64,000 nt of DNA from Kordiimonas lipolytica. Its GTDB lineage: Bacteria > Pseudomonadota > Alphaproteobacteria > Sphingomonadales > Kordiimonadaceae. Position numbers and translations under genes: made by a program. Location of the stretch: NCBI RefSeq assembly GCF_001550065.1, contig NZ_LRUB01000029.1, forward strand, positions 1-64,000, read 5' to 3'. Positions 5,043-27,098 of this stretch are shown in pieces (position 1 is the stretch's first letter; each line of letters opens with the position of its first letter). Below the pieces are notes generated by a model. That model was not told the origin of the DNA. It ran no database searches and saw nothing but the letters and a program-made list of their open reading frames with translations.

Positions 5043-5063
5043 GAAAATGGGATCGGTGCCAGC

Positions 5064-6494: not shown

Positions 6495-6498
6495 TGGG

Positions 6499-7383
6499 TC
6501 AATCCTCCAGCTTGGATTTGTAGAATTTGGCGCCCTGGCCACCAGCTGCGCGCTTGCCGCGGTGCTCCCAGTCGCCACCCATGGCTGTGGAAATCACCTC
6601 TTCCGATTCCGTTGGCTGGGCGCCAACATCATCGCGGATTGGCGCCGGGCCTTCAACAATGCGGTTCGTCAGCTTGCCAAGGCCTTCGACTTCCACTTCA
6701 ACCACATCACCGGGCTGGACCGGGCGGCTGTTCGCGGGCGTGCCGGACAAGAGGACATCGCCCGGTTCCAGCGTAATGGTACGCGCGATATCGGCCACCA
6801 GATAGTGCATGTCCCATTCCATGTTGTCGGTATTGTCTTCCTGAACCACCTTGCCGTTCACGATGGTACGGATCACCTTGTTCTTGAAATCCCACCCTTC
6901 CACAAGGCCGGGGCCCAAGGGGCAAAGCGTGTCAGAGCCTTTGACCCGCAGCATGGAGCCGGCATCCGTATCGCGGAAGTCATGAAGGCCATAGTCGTTC
7001 GCGACGGTATAGCCCGCGATATAGTCACCGGCTTCATCGGGCGAGATATTCTTGCAGTGCTTGCCAATGACAATAGCGATCTCACCTTCATAGTTCAGGT
7101 ATTTGCAACGCTTCGGCCGCACGATGTCGCCCTTGTGGGTATTGAGGGCCGTCAGCGGCTTGTGGAAATAGGTTGGCGAGCTGCCAAGCTTGGTCATGAA
7201 CTCATCTACCCGGCTATGGTAATTCAGGTGCACACAGATAATCTTGCTGGGGGCAACAGGCGGCAGATGAACGGCCTCGTCCACATGCACTTTCCTGCCA
7301 TCCTTGGCCACCAGCCAGTCGCCGTCACGCGTTGTCAGAATCGGGTAACCGTCCAGCAGAATTTTGCGATACTCAGTTGTCAT
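6499..7383 (-). CDS. Fumarylacetoacetate hydrolase-fold enzyme (HpaG/FAH type)
   Basis: Start at ATG 7383 (MTTEYRKILLDG) gives 294 residues. A GTG three codons earlier is open but sits less well relative to AAGG. The conserved FAH core is visible: the metal-site region YEGEIAIVIGK, then AGYTVANDYGLHDFRD, then GDVLLSGTPAN and the EVEVEGLG strand. Family members hydrolyse or decarboxylate/isomerise beta-diketo or 2-oxo-alkenedioate products of aromatic ring cleavage, for example HpaG in the homoprotocatechuate pathway. Together with the extradiol dioxygenase at 13019 and the ALDH at 8771 it would supply three steps of such a meta route. The exact reaction is inferred. Confidence 0.88.
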   Translation of the reverse strand: MTTEYRKILLDGYPILTTRDGDWLVAKDGRKVHVDEAVHLPPVAPSKIICVHLNYHSRVDEFMTKLGSSPTYFHKPLTALNTHKGDIVRPKRCKYLNYEGEIAIVIGKHCKNISPDEAGDYIAGYTVANDYGLHDFRDTDAGSMLRVKGSDTLCPLGPGLVEGWDFKNKVIRTIVNGKVVQEDNTDNMEWDMHYLVADIARTITLEPGDVLLSGTPANSRPVQPGDVVEVEVEGLGKLTNRIVEGPAPIRDDVGAQPTESEEVISTAMGGDWEHRGKRAAGGQGAKFYKSKLED

Positions 7384-7552
7384 TTTCTTCACCTTGGTCG
7401 GGACAGAGATAAAAATTCAAGCTTACCTTAAGTCGATCCTGTTCCCACTTTCTTGGCTAATGAGGACAAAAACAGTCCCCCCAGTAGCCAGCCCCCGGAA
7501 GTTCAGGGATAGTTGCAGTCGAAGTTTCAGTTCCAAATACAAGGGAATGCAC

Positions 7553-8356
7553 ATGACTGGTTTTTACTATCCCCGGACACAGTCCGGCAAATCGGCGATC
7601 CTGCCCCCGGTGCCATGGCACTATTCCGGTGAGTTGATCACCCTGGAATATCGCACACACCCGGAAGCTGTTGCAGCCCTTCTGCCGGAAGGGTTCGAGC
7701 TAGCCGACGACGATCCGGGCGCTGTTGCTGCCATCTGGGCAGACTGGCAAAGTTGCTCAGACGATTTCAATGAAATCCTTGACCCCGTGCGGTGCCAATA
7801 CAAGGAAATGTTCATCGTGATCCGGTGCAAGTACAAGGGCAAGCATTATTCCCGCTGCGCCTTTATCTGGGTTGATAAGGACTTTGCCATCCTGCGCGGC
7901 CAGCACCAGGGCTACCCCAAGAAGCTGGGCTCCATTCACATGAGCCGCCCGGTTACCCTTGGCAAAGCAGGCCCGCGCCTTGAAGCTGGTGGCAAATTCG
8001 GCGTAACGCTGGCGGCTTATGACCGGCGGCTGGCGGAAGGTGTCTTCACCATTACGGAAGAAGCCGAAAAGCCAGGCTTCGTCAATGGCCTGCCGATGGC
8101 GCACAATCGCTGGTATCCGGCGATTGAGACCAATGGCACCGACAGCCTTTCCGAAGTGGTGACCATGTCCGGCTTTGACGGCGAGATGGGGCGTTGCTTC
8201 ATGGGCGATTTCGACTTGACGTATTTCCCGTCACCGGTCGAGGAACTGGTTGACCTGCCAATAGTTGAGAAGATCGCCGGCTATTGGCACGAAGTGGGCG
8301 TTTCCTGGAAGGCCGGCACCACTCTTTCCCGCAAGACACTGCCTGACTTTCGGTGA
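7553..8356 (+). CDS. Acetoacetate decarboxylase-like protein
   Basis: Start at ATG 7553 (MTGFYYPRTQ) gives 267 residues. AAGGG stands 7-8 bases upstream, whereas the ATG at 7547 is too close to it. The acetoacetate decarboxylase fold is recognised by PEAVAALLPEGFEL near the N-terminus and GYPKKLGS, whose adjacent lysines K123/K124 match the Schiff-base lysine pair of true decarboxylases. A beta-keto acid decarboxylation is therefore plausible. Many family members act instead as aldolase- or dehydratase-like enzymes on pathway intermediates. It is divergent from the FAH gene, and its stop overlaps the next gene's GTG start. Confidence 0.82.
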   Translation: MTGFYYPRTQSGKSAILPPVPWHYSGELITLEYRTHPEAVAALLPEGFELADDDPGAVAAIWADWQSCSDDFNEILDPVRCQYKEMFIVIRCKYKGKHYSRCAFIWVDKDFAILRGQHQGYPKKLGSIHMSRPVTLGKAGPRLEAGGKFGVTLAAYDRRLAEGVFTITEEAEKPGFVNGLPMAHNRWYPAIETNGTDSLSEVVTMSGFDGEMGRCFMGDFDLTYFPSPVEELVDLPIVEKIAGYWHEVGVSWKAGTTLSRKTLPDFR

Positions 8357-8685
8357 TAACTAACCCCAGCATCTGTCATGCCCATGTCTATTTTGATGTG
8401 GGCATGACGCACGTTGCCACAAACGTTTGCCGCAGGGCAGCCGAAAAGTTTTCGCTTCAGATGGGGCGGGTTCATCAAAAGCCAGTCGGCCCGCATTCAA
8501 AGCCCAGCTGCCAACTGATCATTCCCCTCCCCAAACTTGAAACAGTCCTTCCCTGGCTGGACCATCACCGGCAGGGTCTGTCCGTCCTCATCCATTCGGT
8601 AACCGGCGATGACCTGGCCGACCATACGGACGGCTGTTTCTGGCTGGGCACGCCGCACCCTCTAAAGCTCAACATCTTCCAGTGA
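8353..8685 (+). CDS. DOPA 4,5-dioxygenase-like small protein
   Basis: A 110-residue protein starting at GTG 8353, overlapping the stop of the preceding gene by 4 bp (GTGA), so translational coupling is likely. The DOPA-dioxygenase family signature is seen: HAHVYFD near the start (H9, H11), VGPHSKPSCQ, a PWL segment, then GLSVLIHSVTGDDLADH and WLG. Plant and fungal members cleave the ring of DOPA. Bacterial homologues of this length are mostly uncharacterised but keep the histidines. Here it sits in a cluster that also has an unrelated class III extradiol dioxygenase. Confidence 0.82.
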   Translation: MITNPSICHAHVYFDVGMTHVATNVCRRAAEKFSLQMGRVHQKPVGPHSKPSCQLIIPLPKLETVLPWLDHHRQGLSVLIHSVTGDDLADHTDGCFWLGTPHPLKLNIFQ

Positions 8686-8694
8686 AAAAGCAAA

Positions 8695-8726
8695 TGGGCG
8701 GAGAGCCATGTTTGGCGCTCCGCCCA
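8695..8726 (+). terminator. Inverted repeat between convergent genes, probable terminator
   Basis: TGGGCGGAG pairs with CTCCGCCCA around a short loop, 10 bp after the DOPA-dioxygenase-like gene and before the convergent ALDH stop at 8771. There is no clear T-run, so intrinsic termination is possible but not strong. Confidence 0.5.
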
Positions 8727-8770
8727 ATCATTTCGGGCCGCTAGGAAGGGGAGGAAGTGAAAGCCCGAAA

Positions 8771-10231
8771 CTAGCTTGTAGACCCTTCCAGGATCTGCAG
8801 CGTCTTGAGATCCGAATGGAATTCAAGCGCATAATGCCCGCCTTCGCGCCCAAGGCCGCTCTGGCCAATGCCGCCGAAGGGCGCCGTCAGATCACGCACC
8901 AGGAAGGTGTTCACCCACACGGTACCGCCCCGGACCGCACGGCCAACGCGCTCGGCACGCTCGCGCGAGCCGGTGTAGATAATGCCTGAAAGGCCGTAGA
9001 CGGTGGAGTTCGCCAGCGCCACGCCCTCTTCTTCGGTTTTGAACGTCTGGAACGTGAGGACGGGACCAAAGATCTCGCTTTGAACGACCTCAGACTGGTT
9101 GCTTTTCGGCTTGATCAACGTGGGCTCGACCCACAGGCCGCCTTCCTTGTAGAGCTTGCCGCCACGGACGATATCATCGCCATTGGCGCGTGCGCGGTCG
9201 ATAAAGCCCAGCACACGGTCCACATGCACAGGGTGGATCATCGCCGACATTGTGGTGTCCGCATCGCGGCTGTCGCCCATCACGTGCTGGTCGGCATATT
9301 TGTGGAACAGGGCTTCGAACTCCGCCGCCACGCTTTCTTCCACGATGATGCGCGTGCCCGCCATGCAGACCTGCCCGCTATCGTCAAACTGGCCCGCTGC
9401 TCTCTTCGCCGCTGCATCGATATCCGCATCCGCGAACACCAGAAGGCAGGATTTCCCGCCAAGCTCAGCAGTAAAGGGCACGATGTTTTCCGCCGCTGCC
9501 CTACCAATCACACGGGCGGTCGGCACCGAACCGGTGAAGGAAATCCGCTTCACTCGAGGGTCGTTGACCAGATGGTTGCCCAGTTCGCTCCCCAATCCCT
9601 GAACGATGTTGAACACGCCGGGCGGGAACCCGGCCTTATCGATCAGGTCAGCGAGAACGCTGGCCGACAGGGGCGACCATTCGGCAGGCTTCAGGATCAC
9701 CGTGTTACCGGCTGCAAGCGCTGGCGCACACTTCCAGGTCGACAGCATGAAAGGCGCATTCCACGGCGTGATGATCACGGCCGGTCCTGCAGGCATCCGG
9801 ATCACCCTGTTGTGGGTTCCCTTGCTATCCCAAACACGTTCTTCGTGCTCAACCGCCAGGTCTGCATAGTTTCGGAAATTCAAGGCGCCACGCGGAACGA
9901 GCCGCAGTTCAAGGCTTTCCTGCAGCATGGCCATATCAAGGCATTCGACCGTCGCGATGTCTTTCTTATGCTCGTCAATCAGGTCCGCCAGCCGGTGCAT
10001 ATAGGCGGCGCGTTCCTTGGGCGAAAGTGCTGCCCAGGCAGGGAATGCCGCCTCGGCCGCCGCCACGGCCTGCTCAGCGGTGTCCGCGTCCCCGCGTGAG
10101 ATGTTGCCAAGCAGCATCGACCAGTCCATCGGGCTTCGCGTCTCAAAGGTCGTGGGCGACGACACGCGTTCCCCGCCGATATAATGATCGGGCGATACGG
10201 ATACATGGCCAACGGTAAATCTGTCTCTCAT
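8771..10231 (-). CDS. Aldehyde dehydrogenase, hydroxymuconic-semialdehyde dehydrogenase-like
   Basis: A 486-residue ALDH with ITPWNAP, the FTGSVPTAR loop, general base E256 in AELGGKS and catalytic C289 in GQVCMAG. The overall look (DHYIGGERV start, INTFLVRDLTAPFGG-type C-terminus) resembles enzymes that oxidise ring-cleavage semialdehydes such as HpaE/XylG, but many related ALDHs exist. AGGA precedes the ATG at 10231. It is the last gene of a tight three-gene unit, P450 - GS-like - ALDH, with 18-bp gaps, so it probably acts in the same pathway as the P450 and the ligase. It is not closely similar to the ALDH at 5064. Confidence 0.88.
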   Translation of the reverse strand: MRDRFTVGHVSVSPDHYIGGERVSSPTTFETRSPMDWSMLLGNISRGDADTAEQAVAAAEAAFPAWAALSPKERAAYMHRLADLIDEHKKDIATVECLDMAMLQESLELRLVPRGALNFRNYADLAVEHEERVWDSKGTHNRVIRMPAGPAVIITPWNAPFMLSTWKCAPALAAGNTVILKPAEWSPLSASVLADLIDKAGFPPGVFNIVQGLGSELGNHLVNDPRVKRISFTGSVPTARVIGRAAAENIVPFTAELGGKSCLLVFADADIDAAAKRAAGQFDDSGQVCMAGTRIIVEESVAAEFEALFHKYADQHVMGDSRDADTTMSAMIHPVHVDRVLGFIDRARANGDDIVRGGKLYKEGGLWVEPTLIKPKSNQSEVVQSEIFGPVLTFQTFKTEEEGVALANSTVYGLSGIIYTGSRERAERVGRAVRGGTVWVNTFLVRDLTAPFGGIGQSGLGREGGHYALEFHSDLKTLQILEGSTS

Positions 10232-10249
10232 CGTATGGTTCCTCGTCGC

Positions 10250-11545
10250 CTAGATATAGTGGCCGTAATAATCGAACTGGCCCGCGGCATCCTTGCCGTC
10301 CAGTTCCTTCACTTCCGCTTCCTTGATCGCAATATAGTTGTCGATCATCAGCTGGCTGATAGCAGCTGTGAGGGTCGTATCATTCTTGAGCGCATCAAGG
10401 GCGTCGGTCAGGTTTGTCGGCACATGGCGCTCCGTGTTGACGCTCTCAAGCCCATCACCGGTTTCGGCAGGCGGCAGGTCATACCCTTTTTCAACCCCGA
10501 GAAGAGCTGCGTTCAGGACCGCCGCCACCGCAAAATACGGGCTTGCCGCACAGTCGCCCACCCGGTGTTCGATGCGAGCGGCCTTGCCCGTTTCGGCTGA
10601 CACACGCACCGCGACACCCCTGTGGTCATAGCCCCAGTTCGCCCAATAGCCGCTCAAGCTTGCGGGGGTCAGGCGCTCATAGGAATTCACAATCGGCGCC
10701 AGAATACCACACATGCTCTCATGATGGTGTATGAGGCCGGCAATACAGCCCTTCACCAGATCAGACAAGTTGTCCTTGTCTGTGCCGCCCGCGAAAGCAT
10801 TTTCGCCCTTCTCATTGAGGAAGCTGATGTTGACATGCAGGCCGCTGCCCGCAAGGCCTGGTATCGGCTTGGGCAGGAAACTCAAGAGGTAGCCCTTCTT
10901 GTACATCAGCTCCCGCGCCATGGTTCGGAACAGGAAGAAGTTGTCGCACGCCGCAAGCGCATCGGTGTACCCGAGCGTCATCTCGAACTGCGGGCTGTCA
11001 TATTCGGCATTGAAGGATTCCACATTCAGGCCGATGGACTGTGCCACCGCCCAGACCTCATCCGTCAAACCGGCCGGGTCTGTGAAGGGGCCGGTGCCAT
11101 AAACAAAGGCGCCCGGCGTGTCATACGGAACCCAGCCACCGTCTTCACCGCGCTGGAAGATAAAGGCTTCACCTTCAAGGCCGATCATGGGCGTCAAGCC
11201 ACGCGCCTGCCACTTGGCAATGACATTCTTGAGCGCGGTGCGACCACAAAGCCCGCTCGGGCCGTTTGCGTCACGGATGTCCGCCAAGGCAATCTTCGTG
11301 TTGGGCTCCCACCCATCGCGCAGCGACTTCGGATCAAAGACGCCTTCAATATCCGGCAGCCCCCCTTCAACGCCTGCCCCAGGTGCTGCGATCAGATCAC
11401 GCGAATAAGTCACGGCATAGGCACCAGCGCAGAAGCGGGCATGCCCGCCTTCAGCAAAAGCACTTGGCAAATATTTACCGCGCGCCAGGTTCAGTTGGTC
11501 TGAAAACAGAACCCTTACACGGCTCATGGCATCAGGCGTATTCAT
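10250..11545 (-). CDS. Glutamine synthetase-like gamma-glutamyl-amine ligase
   Basis: A 431-residue GS-fold protein preceded by AAGGGG. GS catalytic elements are visible in order: GLEGEAF (E124, E126), ESFNAEYDSPQFE (E181, E188), GSGLHVNIS (H237), NSYERLTP with the following WANWGYDHRG, and the C-terminal ASPYFAVAA. The N-terminal half is shorter and unlike housekeeping GlnA, as in PuuA, IpuC and AtdA1. Those relatives join glutamate to an amine using ATP. It is co-transcribed with the P450 and an ALDH, and a class I amidotransferase lies nearby, so gamma-glutamylation of an amine substrate is the best inference. A true ammonia-assimilating role is less likely. Confidence 0.85.
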   Translation of the reverse strand: MNTPDAMSRVRVLFSDQLNLARGKYLPSAFAEGGHARFCAGAYAVTYSRDLIAAPGAGVEGGLPDIEGVFDPKSLRDGWEPNTKIALADIRDANGPSGLCGRTALKNVIAKWQARGLTPMIGLEGEAFIFQRGEDGGWVPYDTPGAFVYGTGPFTDPAGLTDEVWAVAQSIGLNVESFNAEYDSPQFEMTLGYTDALAACDNFFLFRTMARELMYKKGYLLSFLPKPIPGLAGSGLHVNISFLNEKGENAFAGGTDKDNLSDLVKGCIAGLIHHHESMCGILAPIVNSYERLTPASLSGYWANWGYDHRGVAVRVSAETGKAARIEHRVGDCAASPYFAVAAVLNAALLGVEKGYDLPPAETGDGLESVNTERHVPTNLTDALDALKNDTTLTAAISQLMIDNYIAIKEAEVKELDGKDAAGQFDYYGHYI

Positions 11546-11563
11546 GTTGAACCCCTTTTTGAT

Positions 11564-12844
11564 TTAGACGGCAGTCATGCGAACAGGCAGGCGCTTCAGG
11601 CCCAGAATAAAGTTTGACCGCAGATAGTCGTGGTTCTTGGTTTGCTCGATGGTCGCAACCCGGCGCGCCAGTTCCTCAAGAACGATCCGCACCTCAAGCT
11701 TCGCCAGCCACATACCAAGGCACACGTGCGGGCCGCCCTGCCCGAACGACACAAAGCGGTTCGGCTTGCGCTCAAGATTAAGCGTGAAGGGTTCATCAAA
11801 AGCCTCTGGGTCGCGGTTGCCAGACGCAAACCAAAGGACGATCTTGTCGCCTTCCTTGATCTGCTTGCCTTCATATTCGAAATCCTTGGTGGCCGTCCGG
11901 CGGAAGTGCGTGGTCGGCGACGCCCAGCGGATCATCTCATCGGCTGCGGAAATCATGAACTCTTCATTGTCGAGGTTGTCCTTGATCTGCTGGAAAAGAT
12001 GCGGCTGGTTCGCCAGGGCGTGGATGGAGGCCGCGATACTGTAGCGCGTTGTGTCATTTCCCGCCGCCACCAGAAGACAGAAGAAATTGCGGAATTCATC
12101 ATGAGTCATCTTGGTGCCGCCCTTGGTTTCACCAAGTACGAGGTTCAGCACACCGAAGCTCTCGCCCGCTTCCATGCGGTTCAGAAGATCATTGGCATAA
12201 TCAAACAGCTCAACAGCCGCGGGCGACCGGAACGGCAACAGCCGGTATTCTTCAGTATCGACCTTGTCGACGACGAAATCGGTATAATCAGGGTCGGAGT
12301 TTGAGATCAGGGCATCGCCCTTTTCCACGAGCCACCCAAGGTCTTCCTCCGGCACGCCGATAATCTGCCCCAACATACGCATGGGCAACTGGCGAGCGAT
12401 CATTTCAGTGGCATCGAACTCACCTTTTTCAAGCGCTTTATCGATAAGGCTGCCCGTGATTTCCCGGATCTGGTCTTCAAACTGGGCCACCGAATTGCGG
12501 GAGAAGGCTTTGTTCACCAGCATCCGGAAGTAGGTGTGCTGCGGGGCATCCGTTTCCTGGAAGGTTTTGCGTGCTTCATACTCTTCCTCGGACTGGTCCT
12601 CGATCCGGATACCCTTTGCGGAGCTGAGGAGATCAGGCTGGCGGTTCAGTTTCATGATATGCTCATGGCTGGTGACCGACCAGAAACCGCGCCCGCCGGT
12701 CTCTTCAGTCCAGGTTACACCGCCTTCGCCGCGCATGCGCTCGAAGGTTTTGTAGGGTGCGCCCTGATTGAAGGCATCAAGTGATGATAGATCGACGTTT
12801 GAATCTTCGGATTGCGAAAACGGATATTGCCAAGCGTTGCTCAT
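11564..12844 (-). CDS. Cytochrome P450 (bacterial class I)
   Basis: Start at 12844 (MSNAWQYPFSQ), chosen because AAGGA lies seven bases upstream; 426 residues, no membrane anchor. The oxygen-binding helix has AGNDTT (about 261-266), the ExxR motif is EMIR (303-306), and the heme loop is FGQGGPHVC with ligand C375. Soluble bacterial P450s hydroxylate small molecules and take electrons from a ferredoxin. Matching ferredoxin and ferredoxin reductase genes are at 17207-18779. The acid-alcohol region fits families acting on terpenoid, steroid or aromatic substrates, but specificity cannot be read. First gene of the P450 - GS-like - ALDH unit. Confidence 0.95.
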   Translation of the reverse strand: MSNAWQYPFSQSEDSNVDLSSLDAFNQGAPYKTFERMRGEGGVTWTEETGGRGFWSVTSHEHIMKLNRQPDLLSSAKGIRIEDQSEEEYEARKTFQETDAPQHTYFRMLVNKAFSRNSVAQFEDQIREITGSLIDKALEKGEFDATEMIARQLPMRMLGQIIGVPEEDLGWLVEKGDALISNSDPDYTDFVVDKVDTEEYRLLPFRSPAAVELFDYANDLLNRMEAGESFGVLNLVLGETKGGTKMTHDEFRNFFCLLVAAGNDTTRYSIAASIHALANQPHLFQQIKDNLDNEEFMISAADEMIRWASPTTHFRRTATKDFEYEGKQIKEGDKIVLWFASGNRDPEAFDEPFTLNLERKPNRFVSFGQGGPHVCLGMWLAKLEVRIVLEELARRVATIEQTKNHDYLRSNFILGLKRLPVRMTAV

Positions 12845-13018
12845 TGCCCATTCCTTGTCTTTATGGGGATAGGTCACCGACCATTCCAATTTCCATCAGA
12901 CTATCTGCTGGCAGGCGGAGCATCTTGGCAGATGTGGACATTGTAAGCCCCCCTGGTACCGAAGTCCCGGGAAATGAGTATTGTTAGAGAGAAGAATTTA
13001 ATCATTTAGGAGGTCGCC
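12845..13018. promoter_or_regulatory. Divergent promoter region between P450 operon and ring-cleavage dioxygenase
   Basis: This 174-bp interval must hold promoters for both directions. Two related half-sites, ATCTGCTGGCAG (12903-12914) and ATCTTGGCAG (12922-12931), are direct repeats near the middle, the kind of arrangement AraC-family activators use. The dioxygenase side ends in a very strong ribosome-binding site, TTTAGGAGGTCGCC, before the ATG. Confidence 0.4.
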
Positions 13019-13918
13019 ATGGGCGAAATCGTGGGTGCAGGGCTCGTCTCGCATGTACCAACCATCATGACACCGGACGAAGATCGTCTGGAAATCTATG
13101 ATGGCAAAGACACCACCCTTATCAAGGGGCTGGAGCGGATCAGGAAAGAGGTGCTGGACGTATTGAAGCCAGACGCTGTGATCGTCTTTGACACGCACTG
13201 GGCAACGCTGATCGAATTTATTGTTACCTCCCATGAACGCCGCACCGGCAAGTTCACATCGGAGGAACTGCCGAGGGGCATGAGCCAGGTTCCTTACGAC
13301 CTGAAGGGCGACCCTGAGCTTGCCCTGCTGATTGAACGGGAAGTAAACGGCGTCGGCACCCGCTGCACCGCAATCGACGACCCTTACCTGCCCATCAACT
13401 ATGGTACCGTCAATGTGGCCCATCACCTGAAGAAGGATGAAGCGTGGCTCAGTGTCGGCGTGTGCATGTCTGCGGACGCCAATGACTATCTGTCGGTTGG
13501 CGAAGGCATCCGCTGCGCCATCGAAAAATCGGACCGCAGGGTCGTCCTTTTGGCCAGCGGTTCCATGAGTCATACGTTCCGCCCCTTCCGGGACATCAGC
13601 ATCGGCAAATATGAAGCCGCAAACCCTGAGTTTGTCTTCTCCGCAGAAGCCCGCGAGGCAGACTATGAACGCCTGGCCTGGTTCAAGGAAGGCAACCACG
13701 CCGCAGTCATCGACACCATGGGGGACTATTACAGGCACAGACCTGAAGGCGGCTTTGGCCATTACCTGATGATGGTGGGCGCACTGGGCGCGCGCAACTG
13801 TCGGGCAAAAGGGCGTCAATTCAGCGAATATGAAAACTCTGTCGGCACCAGCCAGGTACACGTATGGTTCGACCGCCCGGAAGACGGCTGGAACGGACTG
13901 GACAACAACGAGTCCTAA
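13019..13918 (+). CDS. Class III extradiol ring-cleavage dioxygenase (LigB/HpaD family)
   Basis: A 299-residue protein of the LigB superfamily, close in length to homoprotocatechuate 2,3-dioxygenase. Conserved histidines are in LVSHVPTI (about H12), FDTHWATL, SGSMSHTF and GGFGHYLMM, and an acidic segment follows GNHAAVID. These enzymes use Fe(II) to open a catechol ring next to the hydroxyl pair. The start is fixed by an excellent ribosome-binding site. The gene stands alone, divergent from the P450 operon, and ends in an intrinsic terminator. With the FAH-fold enzyme and the ALDHs it outlines a meta-cleavage route; the catechol it opens is not known. Confidence 0.88.
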   Translation: MGEIVGAGLVSHVPTIMTPDEDRLEIYDGKDTTLIKGLERIRKEVLDVLKPDAVIVFDTHWATLIEFIVTSHERRTGKFTSEELPRGMSQVPYDLKGDPELALLIEREVNGVGTRCTAIDDPYLPINYGTVNVAHHLKKDEAWLSVGVCMSADANDYLSVGEGIRCAIEKSDRRVVLLASGSMSHTFRPFRDISIGKYEAANPEFVFSAEAREADYERLAWFKEGNHAAVIDTMGDYYRHRPEGGFGHYLMMVGALGARNCRAKGRQFSEYENSVGTSQVHVWFDRPEDGWNGLDNNES

Positions 13919-13945
13919 ATCTTCAGCCATTCCAAAAAGAAAATG

Positions 13946-13980
13946 AAAAGCCGCGGAGGAATACCCTTCACGGCTTTTTT
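13946..13980 (+). terminator. Intrinsic terminator after the extradiol dioxygenase
   Basis: AAAAGCCG pairs with CGGCTTTT and is followed by a run of six T residues on the plus strand, 27 bp after the dioxygenase stop. Confidence 0.8.
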
Positions 13981-14011
13981 CTTTGCTGGTAACCTGTCGC
14001 CGAACAACACA

Positions 14012-14845
14012 TCAGCGCAGGCAGTGGGTCACCCAATTGATGATCTCAGCCCGCCGGATGTGGGGGTCAAGAATATCTTCGTCGATCCCCAGCTGCCAGG
14101 CGATGGCCTTGTTGGATGGATTTTCAATCAGCGCATCAATCTGGGCGCGGTAGCCATCCGCAGCAACTTCCGTGTGGAAGAAATCCTGCTCCAGCAGGTC
14201 CTGCTTATACAGCCGGAAAAGCATGGACAATTGTTCCAGATCGAACTCCGGGTGATACTGGACCGCCCAGACCTCGGACCGCCCAACAGGTATCACCGCA
14301 CCCTGGATTTCGCTGTGGCGGTTGGTACATAGAAGCGTCGCGTTCGCGGGAAGCTTTGTCACCTCGTCATAATGGATGCAGGGCGCGTCGAACGTGTGCC
14401 GCTTGCCGCGGAAATAAGGGTGTTCCCTGCCCGCATCAGTCAGCAGGATTTTCCGCGCGAAACCGATCTCGCGGCCGTTCGGGCTGGCCTCCACCGTGCC
14501 GCCGGCGGCAATGGCGGCAATCTGAAGCCCCCAGCAACTGCCAAGCACGGGCTTGCCCGTTTCGCCAAACTTTTTCAGGATCTCGATCTGGTTTCTGACC
14601 GCGAATGTATCGTCGAACGCGCGCAGGCTGGAGCCGCTGATCACCATGCCGTCAAAATCGTCGAAGCTGGCGCCTTCCGGCAAGGCGGCGTCCTTGTCAG
14701 CACCATTCAGGACCGTCATTTCAATGTCAGGGAAATGGGCGCTAATGGCTTCCGCATACACCTGGCTTGCGGCACGCACGCCGATACTGTCTGCGCGCAC
14801 GCGGACTTTCCTGGGGTTTCCCTCCAGCAGCAATAGATGGGGCAT
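14012..14845 (-). CDS. Class I glutamine amidotransferase (GMP-synthase/PuuD/AtdA2-like)
   Basis: Start at 14845 (MPHLLLLEGNPRKV) gives 277 residues. A longer in-frame start would read through a terminator hairpin (14883-14908), and GAGG supports the shorter one. The full catalytic triad of class I GATases is present: C104 in GSCWGLQ, H198 and E200 in YHPEF. The protein has no synthetase domain, so it either hydrolyses gamma-glutamyl amides itself or serves an unknown partner. Standalone relatives include PuuD and AtdA2, which act with a GS-like ligase in amine catabolism. The GS-like gene 2.5 kb away makes that pairing plausible here. Confidence 0.85.
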   Translation of the reverse strand: MPHLLLLEGNPRKVRVRADSIGVRAASQVYAEAISAHFPDIEMTVLNGADKDAALPEGASFDDFDGMVISGSSLRAFDDTFAVRNQIEILKKFGETGKPVLGSCWGLQIAAIAAGGTVEASPNGREIGFARKILLTDAGREHPYFRGKRHTFDAPCIHYDEVTKLPANATLLCTNRHSEIQGAVIPVGRSEVWAVQYHPEFDLEQLSMLFRLYKQDLLEQDFFHTEVAADGYRAQIDALIENPSNKAIAWQLGIDEDILDPHIRRAEIINWVTHCLR

Positions 14846-14882
14846 TTCCGCCTCTTTCAAAAAAATCCGGGGTGCAGATATA

Positions 14883-14908
14883 GCAAAGCCCGCTTGCGCG
14901 GGCTTTGC
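14883..14908 (-). terminator. Intrinsic terminator between AraC regulator and amidotransferase
   Basis: Perfect 11-bp arms GCAAAGCCCGC/GCGGGCTTTGC with a 4-base loop, 33 bp after the AraC stop on the minus strand. The T-run is short (TTTGCTAT), but the arms are strong and the position fits. Confidence 0.65.
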
Positions 14909-14941
14909 CATTGAGGACATTTTGGGAGGACATTCTAGTTT

Positions 14942-15952
14942 TTACGAAGCCAGTTGCCTGAACTGCTGTGGCGCCATGCCGGCCCAGCGCATGAACGCGC
15001 GAGAGAAGGTGCTGTGTTCCGAATATCCGAGCTTGAGCGCCATTTCGGACAACGACTGCGTCTTGCAGATCTTGAACTCAAGCGACGCCGCGCGCATCCG
15101 GCACTCATCGAGGATCGACTGAAAGGATTCGCCCTCGCCCGCAAGTTTGCGCCGCAGGGTCCGGCGGGACATGCCAAGTTCAAGGGCAATATGATCCTGG
15201 TTGACCTTGCCTTTACTCAGCCCCTCGAAAATCTTCTGCCGGGTCCGGTCGCTTGCAGGCATACGGCGCTTCTGCTCTGACAGAAGCCGCGACAATCTTT
15301 TCATATGATCACCATCCACCGCCGGCAAAAGATCAAGTTCCCTGTTCAGAAGGCTGGTCGGGAAGCGGAAACCATTGCTTTCAGCTTTGTATTCGACGTT
15401 GGTTTTCACAATGTCGCTGACATCCCGTTTGATGGTCTCGGCGTCACATTCAACAAACATCTCAACCGAATGCCAGGCATCTGGCGCGGCCGACTTGATG
15501 AAAGTTGCGAAAATGCCCAGCGAATAAAGCGCATCTTCGGTCCGCGGCCAGATATCCGGGTCCAGAATACGGTAGCTGAGTGTGGACCATTGTTCGCCCA
15601 CATCGAAGGTTACTTGGGTATCATCCTGGATCAGCGGGTAATATTGCGCCAAACGGCTGAAAGCCGTTCCCAGGTTCTTTGCCCCAAGGACAGCGCGCCC
15701 AGCATAGCCCCGTTTGGAATAGTTGGAGGCATGCCCTACGGCCCACGACAGGCCCGCACTGTCTTTTACCTGCCCGACCTGCTCAAGAAAGGAGACAAAC
15801 TCTTTCAGGTCCACAACCAGAGAGCCGCCGTCCTCGCTGTGGTCAGACGCTTTCAAAGACAGGTTACCAAAGTTTCCTGCGTCCAGCCCGCGTGAGGCCA
15901 GAACGCCTTGCCAGTCGGCCACGGCCGAGGCGTTTACAAAGGAGTTTTTCAT
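14942..15952 (-). CDS. AraC-family transcriptional regulator (arabinose-binding-like N-terminus)
   Basis: Start at 15952 (MKNSFVNASAVADW) after GGGGAAG gives 336 residues. The N-terminal two thirds resemble the ligand-sensing domain of the OruR/ArgR-like AraC group. The C-terminus carries the paired helix-turn-helix: HIALELGMSRRTLRRKLAGEG, then the second helix pair in SLSEMALKLGYSEHSTFSRAF. It is divergently arranged with a second AraC-family gene at 16071, with 118 bp between starts. Both probably control genes of the island in response to substrate or an intermediate. Ligand unknown. Confidence 0.9.
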   Translation of the reverse strand: MKNSFVNASAVADWQGVLASRGLDAGNFGNLSLKASDHSEDGGSLVVDLKEFVSFLEQVGQVKDSAGLSWAVGHASNYSKRGYAGRAVLGAKNLGTAFSRLAQYYPLIQDDTQVTFDVGEQWSTLSYRILDPDIWPRTEDALYSLGIFATFIKSAAPDAWHSVEMFVECDAETIKRDVSDIVKTNVEYKAESNGFRFPTSLLNRELDLLPAVDGDHMKRLSRLLSEQKRRMPASDRTRQKIFEGLSKGKVNQDHIALELGMSRRTLRRKLAGEGESFQSILDECRMRAASLEFKICKTQSLSEMALKLGYSEHSTFSRAFMRWAGMAPQQFRQLAS

Positions 15953-16019
15953 TTCGCTTCCCCGTTTCATCTCTGGATCAGACGATGATGGGAAAGCCGA
16001 TCTTGCGCTTGTCAATTTC

Positions 16020-16035
16020 TATCAATATTATGATA
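16020..16035. promoter_or_regulatory. AT-rich palindrome between the divergent AraC genes
   Basis: TATCA and TGATA flank ATATTA in the 118-bp gap between the two AraC-family starts. The surrounding DNA is distinctly AT-rich. It could be an operator or a promoter element shared by the two genes; this is position-based inference. Confidence 0.4.
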
Positions 16036-16070
16036 ATCTCTATCACGCGAAAGAATTGGACCCTTGCCAG

Positions 16071-17120
16071 ATGTTGGAAGCAGCAAAATTACAAAAAATT
16101 AAGCAAGAACCACATATCTGGTCATCTGTTATCCGAAGCCTGCGCGCCCCCCTGAAGGAAAACGACATCGACGCTGATCAACTGATGGCAGAGGTTGGCA
16201 TCTCCAAACATGACGTCGATCTGACCAATGGGGAAATCCCCCTAAAGGGTTGGATGAATTTTATGGAAAAAGCGGCAGTCAATGCCGGAAATCCATTGCT
16301 AGGGGTGGACCTGGCCCGCACGGCCGGGCCTGAAACATTGGGTGCCGTCGGCTTCCTGTTTCTGTCGTCACCCACCATTCACGAAGCCTTCTTGAATATG
16401 TGCCACTATATGAATTTGCTACAGGGCGTGACCAACGCCCATCTGGTTATAGACGACTATGAGACCGCTTGGGTTTACCAGATCATGCATGTGGATGAGC
16501 TGAAGTGCATCCAGGACGTGGAGTTTTCACTGACCCTCACGAAACGCATGATCAAGATTTTCGCCGAAGACAAGATCGATGTCCTTAGCGTCAACTTCCG
16601 TCATTCCCCACAAATGGATCGCCGCGAATATGAAAAGCGCATCAAGGTGCCGGTTCACTTCAACCAGGAGGTAAACAGCGTGGTCATCCCTACGCAGCAT
16701 TTGAACATGACAGGCAAAATCCTGGATTCGAGCCTGGCGCCTATCCTGAAAGCATACCTGGACGAAGAACAGGCAAGCTTCAACAAGATCAAGACACTGT
16801 CAGACCAGGTCCGATACGTCCTGTACGGCCAGCGCATTCCCCTTCCCATCACGGCAAAGAAGGTGGCTCGCCATGTTGGCCTCTCTGAAGCCAGCCTGTA
16901 TCGGAAATTGAAGAGCGAAGGCGTGCGTTTTTCCGATCTGCTGGAAGAAAGGAATTTCGGCCTTGCGAAGGAATATCTCTCGACATCGGATATGACTGTC
17001 ACTCAGGTTGCCCACATTATCGGCTTTGCCGATTCCTCAAGTTTCTGCCGCGCTTTCACGCGCTGGTCGGGTGGCATCACACCGTCTGAATTTCCGAAAA
17101 GCGAGAATTCCGGCCTCTAG
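16071..17120 (+). CDS. AraC-family transcriptional regulator
   Basis: ATG at 16071 (MLEAAKLQKIKQEP) gives 349 residues, the usual size. The frame is open far upstream, but that part is antisense to the other AraC gene and unlike the family. The ribosome-binding site is weak, so the start is not certain. The N-terminal sensing domain resembles the arabinose-binding-like type, and the C-terminus has two helix-turn-helix motifs (ARHVGLSEASLYRKLKSEG and VTQVAHIIGFADSSSFCRAF). It precedes the ferredoxin reductase by 86 bp on the same strand. It is a different protein from its divergent neighbour, so the island has at least two regulators. Confidence 0.87.
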   Translation: MLEAAKLQKIKQEPHIWSSVIRSLRAPLKENDIDADQLMAEVGISKHDVDLTNGEIPLKGWMNFMEKAAVNAGNPLLGVDLARTAGPETLGAVGFLFLSSPTIHEAFLNMCHYMNLLQGVTNAHLVIDDYETAWVYQIMHVDELKCIQDVEFSLTLTKRMIKIFAEDKIDVLSVNFRHSPQMDRREYEKRIKVPVHFNQEVNSVVIPTQHLNMTGKILDSSLAPILKAYLDEEQASFNKIKTLSDQVRYVLYGQRIPLPITAKKVARHVGLSEASLYRKLKSEGVRFSDLLEERNFGLAKEYLSTSDMTVTQVAHIIGFADSSSFCRAFTRWSGGITPSEFPKSENSGL

Positions 17121-17206
17121 ACACAGCCCATCTCTTTGGCCGGATTTGCACGGCAGGGCCTGCGACAATCCCTTATCACCCTTGGGGAAGATAAGGAGAC
17201 CGTCTT

Positions 17207-18451
17207 ATGTCGCTTGCATCCAAAGACCGGATCGTCATTGTGGGGGCTGGGCAGGCTGCGATCCAGCTGGCCCAAACCCTGCGCATGAAGGGCCACGCCG
17301 GCCCCATCACATTGCTTGGCGAGGAGTCTGCGCCTCCCTACCAGCGGCCACCGCTTTCCAAAGCCTTTATGAAAGGCGACCTGGCCGAGGAAAAGCTATT
17401 CCTCAAGCCGCTCTCATTTTACGAGAACAAGGATGTCGGCCTTTGCCTGAACACGCGCGTAACCGGCATAGACCGTGCGAATAAAACCGTCACCTGCGCG
17501 GACGGCACAAGCCATGACTATGACCGGCTGGTCCTGGCCACCGGTTCACGTCCGCGTATGCTCGATAGCATCGCACACCTTGAGAATGTTCAGGTACTTC
17601 GGGGCCTTGAGGACGCAAAAGCACTGAAGGCACGCCTTTCTGATCTCAAGCATGTCACCGTGCTGGGGGGCGGCTATATCGGGCTTGAGGCCGCGGCCGT
17701 GCTGCGCGGCATGGGGATTGACGTGGTTGTCCTTGAACGGATGCCGCGCCTGCTGGCACGTGTAACCGGCGAGACAATATCAGACTATTTCCTGCGCCTG
17801 CACAGGCATCACGGCGTGAATATCCTGTGCGATGTGGAAGTGACCGAGTATGTATCGTCCGATGACCGACTAACTGCGGTCAAGCTTGCCGATGGCCGTG
17901 ACATTGCAACGGACCTTCTTCTTGTGGGCATTGGCGTACTTCCGAACCAGGAGCTGGCAGAAGAGGCCGGGCTTGAGTGCGGCAACGGCATCATCGTCGA
18001 TGAAGACAGCCGGACAAGCGACGAACGCATTTACGCTATTGGCGACTGCAGCATGCGTCCCCTTCAGGGCCAGCCGCAGAAACTGCGCCTGGAGAGCGTG
18101 CCCAACGCCATCGACCAGGCAGATATTGTGGCGGCCCATATTCTTGGGGCCGAACGCCCCGGCTATAACCCGCCCTGGTTCTGGTCAGACCAGTATGACA
18201 TCAAAATCCAGACAGCAGGCCTGTTCACAGGCCACACCCACACGGTCGTGCGCGGCGATATCGAAGTCGGTCGCTTTGCCGTCTTTTATTTTGAAAGCGA
18301 CCGCTTCATCGCGGTCGACGCTATCAACGACCCACAGTCTTTCATGGCTGGCAAACAAGTCCTGAAATTATCAATCCCGCTCAAGCGGCATCACCTGGAA
18401 GAAACGGATGAGCCGATGATGAGCATCGTCAAGAAACTGCAGCAGAAGTGA
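17207..18451 (+). CDS. FAD/NAD(P)-dependent ferredoxin reductase (P450 redox partner type)
   Basis: A 414-residue flavoprotein like putidaredoxin or rhodocoxin reductase. An FAD-binding GAGQAA motif is near residue 13, followed by the typical [12 protein letters not shown] segment, an NAD-binding [13 protein letters not shown] motif near mid-protein, and the second FAD contact in YAIGDCS. AAGGAG precedes the ATG. It passes electrons from NAD(P)H to a 2Fe-2S ferredoxin. The ferredoxin gene follows after 7 bp, so the two form an operon and complete the electron chain for the P450 encoded at 11564-12844. It could also serve other P450s in the cell. Confidence 0.93.
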
Positions 18452-18458
18452 GAAGACC

Positions 18459-18779
18459 ATGACGAAAATTACCTTTGTAAGCCCTGACGGCGAAGAACGG
18501 ATCATTGACGCAGAGGACGGCGATACCGTCATGGATGCGGCGATCAACAATGATGTGCCCGGCATCCTGGCCGAGTGCGGCGGTGCCTGTGCCTGCGCCA
18601 CATGCCATGTTTATGTGGATGACGCTTTCATGGACAAGGTGGGCACCCCGAGCGAAATGGAAGAATCCATGCTGGAATTTAACGAACACCGGCAGGAAAA
18701 CTCGCGCCTGTCATGCCAGATCAAAGTATCCCCGGACCTTGAAGGTCTGCGAGTGACAGCGCCTGAAAGCCAATATTGA
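18459..18779 (+). CDS. 2Fe-2S ferredoxin, adrenodoxin/putidaredoxin type
   Basis: A 106-residue ferredoxin with the cluster ligands C40, C46, C49 and C86 in the spacing typical of adrenodoxin-type proteins (C-x5-C-x2-C-x36-C). An additional C44 lies inside the loop. The protein is acidic around residues 54-80, the usual docking surface for reductase and P450. It delivers single electrons from the upstream reductase to a P450. It is the last gene of the reductase-ferredoxin pair. A long inverted repeat begins 14 bp after its stop. Confidence 0.95.
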
Positions 18780-18792
18780 ATGCTGAACAAGG

Positions 18793-18843
18793 GCTAGGAT
18801 CATTTTTGACCGGTATTGCCAATCGCGGCTGAGTGATCCTAGC
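18793..18843. promoter_or_regulatory. 10-bp perfect inverted repeat upstream of the TonB receptor
   Basis: GCTAGGATCA (18793-18802) and TGATCCTAGC (18834-18843) are exact reverse complements separated by 31 bp. They lie between the ferredoxin stop and the receptor start, 70 bp upstream of the ATG. There is no T-run, so an operator bound by a dimer, with DNA between the sites looped or covered, is more likely than a terminator. Confidence 0.5.
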
Positions 18844-18912
18844 TAATATATCCCTTTCAACGTAGGCGATAGATGACCTTCGCCGTGGAGACCGTTGTTA
18901 GGGGAAGCACAT

Positions 18913-21237
18913 ATGAAACGTCTTAGTAAAGCAAGCCTGCTTGCTTCATGTTCAATAGTCTACGCCGTAGCCGGCGGACAAATGGCGCAAGCGCAGGTAT
19001 TTGAAGAAATCGTGGTCACCGCCCAGAAGCGGGACCAGTCGCTGTCGGATGTGGGGGTATCTGTTACAGCATTTTCCGGCGAGTCACTCAGGAATTTTGG
19101 CTTCACGAACAGTGTCGATGTTGCGGCCCAAGTGCCCGGACTGAACATCGGCACTCCAGTAGGTGAAGGCAACAACCCTTCCTTCACGCTGCGCGGTGTG
19201 GGGCTGAATGACTTCAACGACAACAACGAAGCCCCGATCGCAATCTATCAAGACGGCGTCTATATGGCTGCCCTACCTGGCCTGACCTTCCAGCTTTTTG
19301 ACACGGAGCGCGTCGAAGTGCTGCGCGGGCCCCAGGGTACGCTCTATGGCCGGAACGCAACCGGCGGCCTGATCCATTTCATTGCCAAGAAACCAACTGA
19401 TGAGTTTGAGGCCTTTGGCCAACTCACCTATGGCAGCCACAACGAGCTGTCGTTTGAAGGCGCCGTCAGTGGCCCGCTTTCTGACAGCATCCGCGGCCGC
19501 CTCTCTGTGGCGCGGAAAAGCTATGACGGTTATGTTGAAAACCGGATTGGCAAGGATGCAAACGAGGCAGACAGCTACGCCCTTCGCGGCCAGCTTGATT
19601 TCGACCTCAGCGATACAGGGTCGCTGCTTCTCAAGGGCAACTATGCGTCCTCAAACACGGTAGCACCGCAGTATCAGCATGAAGCATCTGACGGCGTCGC
19701 CGACATTTATGGCTATGCCGACACTGACGGCGATAATTTCGCAGGCGATTATAGCCGCGAAGGTGTTCTGGACATCGAATCCTGGGGCGGCTCGGCAACC
19801 TATACCGACACATTCGGCAATGTGGATGTGACCAACATCCTCTCCTATAGCAAGACTGAAAAGCTGCACAAAGAGGACACCGATGTCGGCCCGAATGCCG
19901 GTATCGAGCCAACCTTTGCCTCAAACATCAAAGTCTTTACCGAGGAACTCACGCTCAGTGGCGGCGACAACGACTTCAACTGGACAGTTGGTGCCTATTT
20001 CTTTGATTCCAAGGTTGAAGGCGACCTTGAACTGGCAGTGAACTGGTTTGCCGGCTTCGCCCAGTTCCTGGACAGCGACCCAACGGTCTTTGACGGCCTC
20101 CTCGGTGCAGGCACTCCGTCACTCGCGACAGCCGACCCGGATGCTCTGCTCCCAGCCATCCTTTATGACGTGAACTATGAGCAGAACACCCAGTCCATCT
20201 CTGGCTACGGCCAGGTCGAATATGCCCTGAGCGATACCGTCAAACTGACAGGCGGCCTGCGCTACAGCAGCGAAGACAAGGACATGGAATATCTGAACGA
20301 TATGCCCTCCGGCTATCTGCTGAACGATGCGTTCGGCGGCATTCTCGGTATGCAAAGTTGGATGGACTTCCGCACAGGTGGCAACAACAACGCAACCGGC
20401 ATCCCTGACCTGGATGCGGGCGCAGTCGGCGACCTGAACAACATTGATGCCAGCAACCTTTCCGGCAAGATCGGTATCGATTTCACGCCAAACGACAACA
20501 CGCTTTTCTATGCAAGCGTAAGCCGGGGCTTCAAGAGCGGCGGCTTCAATGCCGGCTTCTCTGACGCCACAGACGGCATCAAGACCAGCCAGATTCCGTA
20601 TGACGAGGAAATCCTGACGTCCTATGAAGCCGGTGTAAAATGGTCAAGCGAAGGCGGGAAAGTATCGGTCAACGCCGCAGCCTTCTACTATGACTATAAA
20701 GACTTCCAGGCACTGACGTTCCAGGGTCTGTCGCAGGTGATCACCAACTCAGATGCCACCTACAAGGGCGCTGAAATCGAGATTGGTGCCCGTCCGACAG
20801 ACGGCCTGAGCATGCAACTGGCAGCGAGCTTCCTGGATGCCAACGTTGACGGAGTATCCGTTAACGGTGAATTCCTGCCTGACCGCCGCCCTGTGCTTGC
20901 ACCCAAGTTCACGGCCAGCGGCTTCATCCAGTATGAAAAACCGGTTGAGTCCCTCAAAGGCTATCTATCTGGGAACGTAAGCTTCAACCACCAGGGCGCC
21001 CACTATTTCGATATCACCAACAGCCCACAGTCGCGTGAAGAAGCCTACACACTCGTTGATGCCCGCATCGCCTACCGAAATGACGATGACACCATCGAGG
21101 TGGCCGGCTTCGTGAAGAACCTCTTCAACACCGACTACCGGGTCTATACATTCGATTTTGGTGCCATTGCGGGCTTCAACCAGCAGTTCTTCGGCAAGCC
21201 ACGCTGGTTCGGAATCCAGCTCACCCTGAGGAACTAA
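18913..21237 (+). CDS. TonB-dependent outer-membrane receptor
   Basis: ATG at 18913 (MKRLSKASLLAS) follows AGGGGAA and gives 774 residues with a signal peptide cut after about residue 28 (AQAQ). The TonB-box-like segment EEIVVTAQKRDQSL opens the mature protein, then the plug domain (RGVGLNDF, EVLRGPQGTLYGRNATGG) and a 22-strand barrel region ending in FGIQLTLRN. The family imports large or scarce compounds using the TonB system. This sequence type is common for catabolic clusters in sphingomonad-like bacteria rather than siderophores. It follows the P450 redox genes, so uptake of the island's substrate is a reasonable inference. Confidence 0.93.
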   Translation: MKRLSKASLLASCSIVYAVAGGQMAQAQVFEEIVVTAQKRDQSLSDVGVSVTAFSGESLRNFGFTNSVDVAAQVPGLNIGTPVGEGNNPSFTLRGVGLNDFNDNNEAPIAIYQDGVYMAALPGLTFQLFDTERVEVLRGPQGTLYGRNATGGLIHFIAKKPTDEFEAFGQLTYGSHNELSFEGAVSGPLSDSIRGRLSVARKSYDGYVENRIGKDANEADSYALRGQLDFDLSDTGSLLLKGNYASSNTVAPQYQHEASDGVADIYGYADTDGDNFAGDYSREGVLDIESWGGSATYTDTFGNVDVTNILSYSKTEKLHKEDTDVGPNAGIEPTFASNIKVFTEELTLSGGDNDFNWTVGAYFFDSKVEGDLELAVNWFAGFAQFLDSDPTVFDGLLGAGTPSLATADPDALLPAILYDVNYEQNTQSISGYGQVEYALSDTVKLTGGLRYSSEDKDMEYLNDMPSGYLLNDAFGGILGMQSWMDFRTGGNNNATGIPDLDAGAVGDLNNIDASNLSGKIGIDFTPNDNTLFYASVSRGFKSGGFNAGFSDATDGIKTSQIPYDEEILTSYEAGVKWSSEGGKVSVNAAAFYYDYKDFQALTFQGLSQVITNSDATYKGAEIEIGARPTDGLSMQLAASFLDANVDGVSVNGEFLPDRRPVLAPKFTASGFIQYEKPVESLKGYLSGNVSFNHQGAHYFDITNSPQSREEAYTLVDARIAYRNDDDTIEVAGFVKNLFNTDYRVYTFDFGAIAGFNQQFFGKPRWFGIQLTLRN

Positions 21238-22028: not shown

Positions 22029-22094
22029 CAAGACATCCGGCCTTTTCGACAATTCATATTTCTGGTCATATTTCTGGCCATGCCCACCCCAATC

Positions 22095-22170: not shown

Positions 22171-22181
22171 GACAACACTAT

Positions 22182-27088: not shown

Positions 27089-27098
27089 GACAAACTCC

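Follow-up and report, generated by a model that had tools for sequence, protein, structure and literature searches.

A 64,000-nucleotide stretch of the Kordiimonas lipolytica genome (contig NZ_LRUB01000029.1, positions 1 to 64,000, hereafter the window) carries, around a glutamine synthetase (GS)-like gene, a cluster that very probably encodes the catabolism of an aromatic amine of some sort under a glutamate cap. As to the substrate and the individual steps, we lean towards tyramine or dopamine, degraded as set out below. This arylethylamine reading rests on the linkage of the GS-like gene to a cytochrome P450 gene, a ring-cleavage set resembling HpaD, HpaE and HpaG, and the co-occurrence of GABA (4-aminobutyrate) transaminase and decarboxylase genes; substrates, products and activities are all inferred from gene families, conserved linkage and co-occurrence. 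The initial annotation had placed here the GS-like gene, a P450, a class I glutamine amidotransferase (GATase), a ferredoxin reductase (FdR), a ferredoxin (Fdx) and an extradiol dioxygenase, and profile scans found each of them in its position and in the matching family. Its pathway reading survives in part: glutamylation, P450 oxidation and ring opening still give the best account, whereas the analogy with aniline degradation gives way to a tyramine- or dopamine-type substrate, which fits better. Absent from that annotation were two aldehyde dehydrogenases (ALDH1 and ALDH2), a DOPA_dioxygen-family protein, an acetoacetate-decarboxylase-like (ADC-like) protein, an HpaG-like FAA-hydrolase-family protein (FAH), an MFS transporter, a TonB-dependent receptor and two AraC-type regulators; with the HpaG-like, ADC-like and second ALDH genes the ring-cleavage pathway becomes complete. 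The genes assigned to the pathway are the following.

5064..6578, minus strand: ALDH2, proposed gamma-glutamyl-aminobutyraldehyde dehydrogenase (Pfam Aldedh, 524.8 bits)
6499..7392, minus strand: HpaG-like FAH, proposed decarboxylase/isomerase (FAA_hydrolase, 194.2 bits)
7364..8356, plus strand, true start probably near 7550: ADC-like protein, proposed hydratase-aldolase (ADC, 192.9 bits)
8771..10231, minus strand: ALDH1, HpaE-like semialdehyde dehydrogenase (best NCBIfam model HpaE, 467.4; cut-off 638.35)
10250..11545, minus strand: GS-like protein, predicted gamma-glutamyl amide ligase (Gln-synt_C, 266.8 bits)
11564..12889, minus strand, likely start at internal Met16: cytochrome P450, proposed ring hydroxylase of the gamma-glutamyl amine (Pfam p450, 72.9 bits)
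13019..13918, plus strand: LigB-type extradiol dioxygenase, HpaD-like (LigB, 105 bits)
14012..14920, minus strand: class I GATase, proposed gamma-glutamyl amide hydrolase (GATase, 65.4 bits)
17207..18451, plus strand: FdR (Pyr_redox_2, 242.3 bits, and Reductase_C, 91.8 bits)
18459..18779, plus strand: Fdx, 2Fe-2S ferredoxin (Fer2, 50.4 bits)

The P450, GS-like and ALDH1 genes form a head-to-tail row on the minus strand with gaps of 18 bases at both junctions. With the P450 gene 18 bases upstream of the GS-like gene and on the same strand, the shared transcript proposed for these two in the initial annotation is plausible. The LigB gene diverges from the P450 gene, 129 bases away, and thus lies outside this transcript, and FdR and Fdx form a plus-strand pair.

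We surveyed related neighborhoods using a profile built from 31 GS relatives, taking 80 loci (identified by L numbers) as the best of 462 confirmed relatives; gene presence was scored by tblastn at E <= 1e-8, with the window proteins and family representatives as queries. Because many of the loci are short or run into a contig end, gene absences in this survey are not firm. A P450 was found in 77 of the 80 loci (the misses being L039, L040 and L063), and in 76 it is the same-strand neighbor of GS; since only the GS profile was used to collect the loci, this linkage is not due to chance. With a GATase, both types counted, in 55 of the 80, this extends the co-occurrence that the initial annotation had seen in one strain to many genomes. 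LigB was matched in 46 loci, all 46 of which also matched ALDH1, with FAH present in 22 of them and ADC in 18. Kordiimonas marina (L001) and Kordiimonas laminariae (L028) carry the cluster in nearly the same gene order as the window, and the combination recurs across Alpha- and Gammaproteobacteria. Among 119 genomes of Sphingomonadaceae, the family of Novosphingobium, GS and LigB each occur in 4, and these are the same ones (Fisher p 1.3e-7). Among the Rhodobacteraceae in the broad sense, the family of Lutimaribacter, the GS gene, counted alone, is present in 51 of 248 genomes (E < 1e-110, at least 44% identity), the next-best match in these genomes being at E 8e-50.

A second architecture, seen mostly in L050-L080 and including many Roseobacter relatives, consists of GATase, P450 and GS, often with a ferredoxin, and has no LigB gene close by. 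We searched for LigB in 31 genomes, 28 of this architecture and 3 LigB-type controls. Sixteen matched: all 3 controls, 2 genomes with an orthologue on another contig (58% and 53% identity), 9 with an HpaD-like protein (30-35%) and 2 with a very weak match; the other 15 gave none. Two gammaproteobacterial chromosomes (L039 and L040) keep GS, ALDH1 and FAH and have no P450 or LigB match, and the oxygenase may have been replaced there. Upstream in L039 lie frames of 322 and 88 amino acids without a Pfam match; a 363-residue open reading frame (ORF) between GS and ALDH1 in the same locus looked spurious by eye and was set aside.

The GS-like protein has the GS fold (Gln-synt_C), and alignment showed that the catalytic Glu, His and Arg positions are kept, the roles of these residues being those we presume from GS enzymes. 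It scored below the NCBIfam cut-offs of GlnT (199.8 against 469.6) and GlnA (173.6 against 429.15), and likewise missed that of PuuA. In a maximum-likelihood tree of 36 proteins, the 24 sampled cluster GS proteins form one clade (100/100) on a long stem, apart from GlnA, GlnT, PuuA, IpuC and the AtdA1-type enzymes; very long branches for some references leave the deeper order of this tree, from which NpaA1 was left out, unsure. The window protein thus shows no grouping with GlnA or GlnT, in keeping with the initial annotation's proposal of an amide ligase, and it groups with no characterized gamma-glutamyl organic amide synthetase in the tree either, falling instead in a clade of its own. One protein is 97% identical to it, and the nearest relatives that carry an organism name are those of Gimibacter soli (73%) and Kordiimonas marina (72%). 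All 10 clade members compared have Leu or Met at the position of GlnA Glu327, a residue which we take to be part of the ammonium site. Outside the clade, a GS encoded on a Streptomyces lunaelactis plasmid (L112, 3127-6287) is sister to it (97/95) and is accompanied by an ADC-family gene, a MarR regulator and, 3 kb from the GS gene, a PuuD-type hydrolase gene.

The closest solved relatives of the P450 are CYP125 types, and the AGNDTT motif is present. Its heme stretch, read by eye as FGQGGPHVCLG, is one residue longer than the textbook FxxGxxxCxG, and a scan of the window P450 with that pattern gave no match. HpaB was present in 7 of 28 LigB-type genomes and absent from the other 21, which leaves the P450 as the likely ring hydroxylase. 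For the GATase, the catalytic triad given in the initial annotation as C104/H198/E200 is right when numbered from the internal Met26, and corresponds to C129/H223/E225 in the longest frame; the nearest solved chain is gamma-glutamyl peptidase 1. In L035 and L048, both without a GATase match, one gene looked by eye like an M24-type peptidase and one like an Asp/Glu racemase.

The ring-cleavage enzymes lie closest to the homoprotocatechuate set. The best NCBIfam model for LigB was HpaD_Fe (137.7, under a cut-off of 315.95) and its best solved chain 8iq8, a 3,4-dihydroxyphenylacetate 2,3-dioxygenase. FAH scored 202.2 of a required 276.4 against the C-terminal HpaG model and slightly higher against the general FAA-hydrolase model (225.7, cut-off 444), with 1gtt as best solved chain. 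The HpaD, HpaE and HpaG models are thus nearest to LigB, ALDH1 and FAH, respectively, with none of the curated cut-offs reached, as would be expected if the side chain has changed. Among solved chains, the ADC-like protein is nearest to MppR (4jm3) and to entries named acetoacetate decarboxylase. The region of the active-site lysine is kept, as a PKK stretch aligned to MppR and 6eej, with the lysine of MppR placed where we presume it to be. An active-site lysine of MppR is named in the available part of PMC10367076. Paraglaciecola arctica (L023), where ADC was unmatched, has a true HpaH (422, cut-off 351.5) and an HpaI-family gene (the HpaI-family representative from L060 scored 340.6, under the cut-off of 368.8), and for this reason we suggest that the ADC-like protein may act as a hydratase-aldolase in place of HpaH and HpaI. 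ALDH1 and ALDH2 are 39% and 35% identical to PuuC, and no specific NCBIfam model reached its cut-off for ALDH2 among the 25 matches listed.

In the pathway we propose, the GS-like ligase would first convert tyramine into gamma-glutamyl-tyramine, and the P450, served by ferredoxin and reductase, would hydroxylate the ring to give gamma-glutamyl-dopamine, a step not needed if dopamine is the substrate. LigB would open the catechol and ALDH1 oxidize the resulting semialdehyde, the glutamate cap stopping the amine from cyclizing onto it. Decarboxylation and isomerization by the HpaG-like enzyme would follow, after which the ADC-like enzyme would hydrate and split the product into pyruvate and gamma-glutamyl-4-aminobutyraldehyde. 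ALDH2 would then form gamma-glutamyl-GABA, and the GATase would release glutamate and GABA, the latter being finished in many relatives by GABA transaminase and succinate-semialdehyde dehydrogenase. The proposed exit follows from the chemistry: once a catechol with the side chain CH2-CH2-NH-gamma-Glu has been opened, the classical sequence would yield pyruvate and gamma-glutamyl-4-aminobutyraldehyde, an intermediate of the Puu pathway, which ends in GABA.

GABA was predicted as the product before the survey was searched for its transaminase. Of the 46 LigB loci, 16 have a GABA-transaminase match, as against none of the 34 loci without LigB (Fisher p 4e-5). All three of the transaminases scanned pass TIGR00700 (531.0, 610.3 and 544.1 against 506.65). 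An ALDH gene lies beside the transaminase in 15 of the 16 loci; two of three such neighbors scanned pass the succinate-semialdehyde dehydrogenase model TIGR01780 (663.7 and 692.4 against 646.35), the third falling just under it (635.5).

A second clue to the substrate is a pyridoxal-dependent decarboxylase, gene-called in five GS-P450 clusters (L060, L061, L067, L069 and L074) and matched by tblastn in eight loci, in L075 at just 29% identity. The best solved relatives of the L060 enzyme are decarboxylases of DOPA (3,4-dihydroxyphenylalanine), tyrosine and aromatic amino acids, its NCBIfam scores all being far below cut-off. Forty GS-positive and 40 GS-negative genomes of Rhodobacteraceae were compared: the decarboxylase (E < 1e-140) occurs in 39 of the former and 13 of the latter (Fisher p 3e-10), and an HpaD resembling that in L098 (E < 1e-70) in 18 and 3, respectively (p 2e-4), neither test being corrected for relatedness. 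In L098 itself (8077-13973, a Roseobacter relative), the decarboxylase gene stands in a row with both HpaD types, which pass the Fe LigB-type and VOC-type models, and with HpaG-like, HpaH and HpaI-family genes; L099 (3693-11094, another Roseobacter relative) shows the same hpa-like layout by position and tblastn. An amine-dehydrogenase heavy chain was matched in 7 loci; the single one compared, from L010, scored higher against aromatic-amine dehydrogenase (168 bits) than against methylamine dehydrogenase (125 bits).

Several observations weigh against the arylethylamine reading. The window's 64 kb gave no tblastn match to HpaH, HpaI, GABA-transaminase or decarboxylase queries, and 30 of the 46 LigB loci have no GABA transaminase nearby. 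The decarboxylase is present in just 5 of 28 LigB-type genomes (E 1e-60), and most of these 28 would therefore depend on amine from outside. Nor is ALDH2 especially close to PuuC, and BLAST of the window GATase against PuuD found nothing. A GATase was not found near 25 of the 80 loci, some of them short contigs, and BLAST of 11 GATase references against the ORFs of these 25 gave nothing at E 1e-4; in 15 such genomes searched as a whole, a homologue elsewhere was close in 4 (50-73%) and distant in 5 (28-35%), and the other 6 gave none at E 1e-20. No LigB match was found in 15 of the 28 genomes of the second architecture, which means that the P450-GS core also works without the ring-cleavage set. 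The co-occurrence counts and Fisher tests throughout are uncorrected for relatedness.

Another aromatic amine could be degraded by the same logic, be it a ring-amino compound of the aniline type, benzylamine, octopamine, or tyrosine or DOPA itself. Substrate specificity is beyond the resolution of the methods used here, a GS-like ligase and a GATase also serve aniline and chloroaniline systems (PMC11335346, available part), and in Ruegeria sp. TM1040 paa genes lie beside the core; nonetheless we consider such a substrate unlikely, as other side-chain lengths would not yield GABA, yet its transaminase accompanies 16 LigB loci, and the decarboxylase link points to the amines of aromatic amino acids. 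The aniline-type version was rejected because AtdA1-type GS proteins belong to a different clade and no Rieske domain was found among the window genes scanned, from 1304 to 21237.

Oxidative N-dealkylation, which we regard as rather unlikely, would have the P450 hydroxylate the carbon beside the capped nitrogen to release 4-hydroxyphenylacetaldehyde and glutamine; ALDH2 would oxidize the aldehyde, and hydroxylation and the ordinary homoprotocatechuate pathway would lead to succinic semialdehyde. This would explain why LigB, ALDH1 and FAH are nearest to HpaD, HpaE and HpaG, why several clusters include a succinate-semialdehyde dehydrogenase, and why the LigB-poor architecture keeps the P450, GS and often the GATase. 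It leaves no ring hydroxylase, however, in the LigB-type genomes that lack HpaB, would make the GABA transaminase and the GATase superfluous, and sits poorly with LigB, ALDH1 and FAH scoring under the equivalog cut-offs.

It is very unlikely that the cluster joins two unrelated neighbors, an Ipu-like module for an aliphatic amine (GS, P450, GATase and ferredoxin) and a set of ring-cleavage genes that serves some other substrate. The first module has a complete precedent in the Ipu pathway, and most of L050-L080 carry it without LigB nearby; against this, the tight head-to-tail linkage of P450, GS and ALDH1 makes a chance neighborhood improbable, LigB and GS share the same few Sphingomonadaceae genomes, and the combination recurs in two proteobacterial classes. 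That the GS simply assimilates ammonia, recovering nitrogen freed by a P450 pathway, as read for the GS beside PipA-like P450s in Gulosibacter (PMC9477822, available part), is scarcely credible, and we rejected a GlnA or GlnT function given its separate clade, the Leu or Met at the Glu327 position and scores far under both cut-offs.

The remaining features of the cluster concern regulation, possible uptake and a second candidate ring-opening protein.

3852..5042, plus strand: MFS transporter, possible uptake (MFS_1, 51.9 bits; matched in 23 of 80 loci)
8353..8685, plus strand: small DOPA_dioxygen-family protein (PF08883, 96.3 bits)
14942..16015, minus strand: AraC1, AraC-type regulator of the QhpR family (QhpR, 333.2, above the cut-off of 250)
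16083..17120, plus strand, within an open frame at 15723-17120, start unsettled: AraC2, second AraC-type regulator (QhpR, 196.4, below the cut-off of 250)
18895..21237, plus strand: TonB-dependent receptor, possible uptake (TonB_dep_Rec_b-barrel, 117.1 bits, and Plug, 64.9 bits)

AraC1 forms a minus-strand pair with the GATase gene. The DOPA_dioxygen gene overlaps the end of the ADC gene and was matched among the 80 loci only in Kordiimonas laminariae; a second ring-opening or an accessory role is possible. At the left edge lies a gene for an Amidohydro_3 protein (1304-3064, minus strand), with matches in L001, L003, L024 and L029, which is perhaps part of the cluster, for example for N-acylated amines. 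On the other side, 21396-28145 (minus strand) holds ordinary neighbors, namely a pair encoding a ferric-reductase-like protein and a molybdopterin oxidoreductase, presumably MsrPQ-like, and the arginine-succinyltransferase pathway genes AstB, ALDH and AstA; the analysis of the stretch from 30 to 64 kb consisted of ORF listing. Elsewhere, a sulfatase gene family lies near the GS-P450 core in twelve loci (L033, L035, L037, L043, L044, L045, L046, L049, L053, L059, L076 and L077; one member, from L046, was scanned), often with a tripartite tricarboxylate transporter, and one may speculate from these genes that sulfated arylamines are natural substrates. On the megaplasmid of Ruegeria sp. TM1040 (L111, 5091-13284), a GntR-GATase-P450-GS row lies beside the phenylacetyl-CoA epoxidase genes paaABCD, which suggests another aromatic fate in some relatives.

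If the arylethylamine reading is true, it would describe a degradation of catecholamine-type compounds that avoids both amine oxidases and a self-cyclizing amino-semialdehyde, add a P450 acting on a gamma-glutamylated aromatic substrate, provide an annotation for the GS clade of the 51 Rhodobacteraceae genomes, and predict that bacteria of water and sediment convert tyramine or dopamine into GABA, pyruvate and succinate. Our searches of the open-licence literature listed no bacterial catabolic route through gamma-glutamyl tyramine or dopamine. There is, in our judgment, an even chance that the cluster represents an undescribed tyramine or dopamine route in which the amine stays capped through P450 hydroxylation and extradiol cleavage, and the side chain with two ring carbons ends up as gamma-glutamyl-GABA.

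Among known systems, the initial annotation knew of none with this set of genes, which overlooked the Ipu isopropylamine pathway with its GS, P450 and GATase. Plasmid pTC1 of Paenarthrobacter aurescens TC1 carries the gene row ALDH-SDR-GATase-P450-ferredoxin-ferredoxin reductase-ipuC. According to the available part of PMC6776027, IpuC forms gamma-glutamyl-isopropylamide, a multicomponent P450 converts it into gamma-glutamyl-L-alaninol, and an amidotransferase is postulated for release. The Ipu systems (P. aurescens TC1, pTC1/pTC2; Pseudomonas sp. KIE171) thus resemble the window in keeping ligase, P450, ferredoxin, ferredoxin reductase and GATase together, and resemble the proposed route in oxidizing a capped substrate by P450 and uncapping it by an amidotransferase. 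They differ in that the substrate is an aliphatic amine, the 13 kb of pTC1 examined contain no ring-cleavage gene, the P450s are only 29% identical and the GS belongs to another clade; BLAST at E 0.01 did not match the window GATase to that of pTC1. In the PipA/MorA secondary-amine clusters of actinobacteria, a P450 and a glutamine synthetase gene likewise share one neighborhood, whereas the substrates are saturated N-heterocycles and the GS is read as assimilating ammonium (PMC9477822, available part).

The aniline and chloroaniline (AtdA, Tdn, Dca) and 1-naphthylamine (Npa) systems also use a GS-like ligase and a GATase to feed an oxygenase and a catechol pathway (PMC11335346, available part), and the aniline/chloroaniline-type gene order with both was seen in L108 and L109; they differ in using a two-component Rieske dioxygenase instead of a P450 and in the separate clade of their GS. 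With the Hpa 4-hydroxyphenylacetate meta pathway, the window shares the closest relatives of LigB, ALDH1 and FAH and the step order, which the available part of PMC12718150 gives as dioxygenase, semialdehyde dehydrogenase, isomerase, decarboxylase, second isomerase, hydratase, aldolase and succinate-semialdehyde dehydrogenase; it differs in having a P450 for HpaB and an ADC-like gene for HpaH and HpaI, both of which are found in L023. From the Puu putrescine pathway of Escherichia coli, the window differs in its entry substrate, in a GATase that is not detectably PuuD and in lacking a PuuB-like oxidase (the sole match of PuuB to the query proteins covers 28 residues of FdR). The predicted end steps, through gamma-glutamyl-aminobutyraldehyde and gamma-glutamyl-GABA to GABA, are those of Puu, and the GABA transaminase of the relatives is 52% identical to PuuE. 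As far as our searches reached, what is new is the coupling of GS, P450 and GATase to a homoprotocatechuate-type meta pathway with a likely GABA ending, a joining of known kinds; for and against in balance, this may amount to an undescribed route of Alpha- and Gammaproteobacteria in which a single cluster begins like Ipu, opens the ring like the homoprotocatechuate pathway and ends like Puu.

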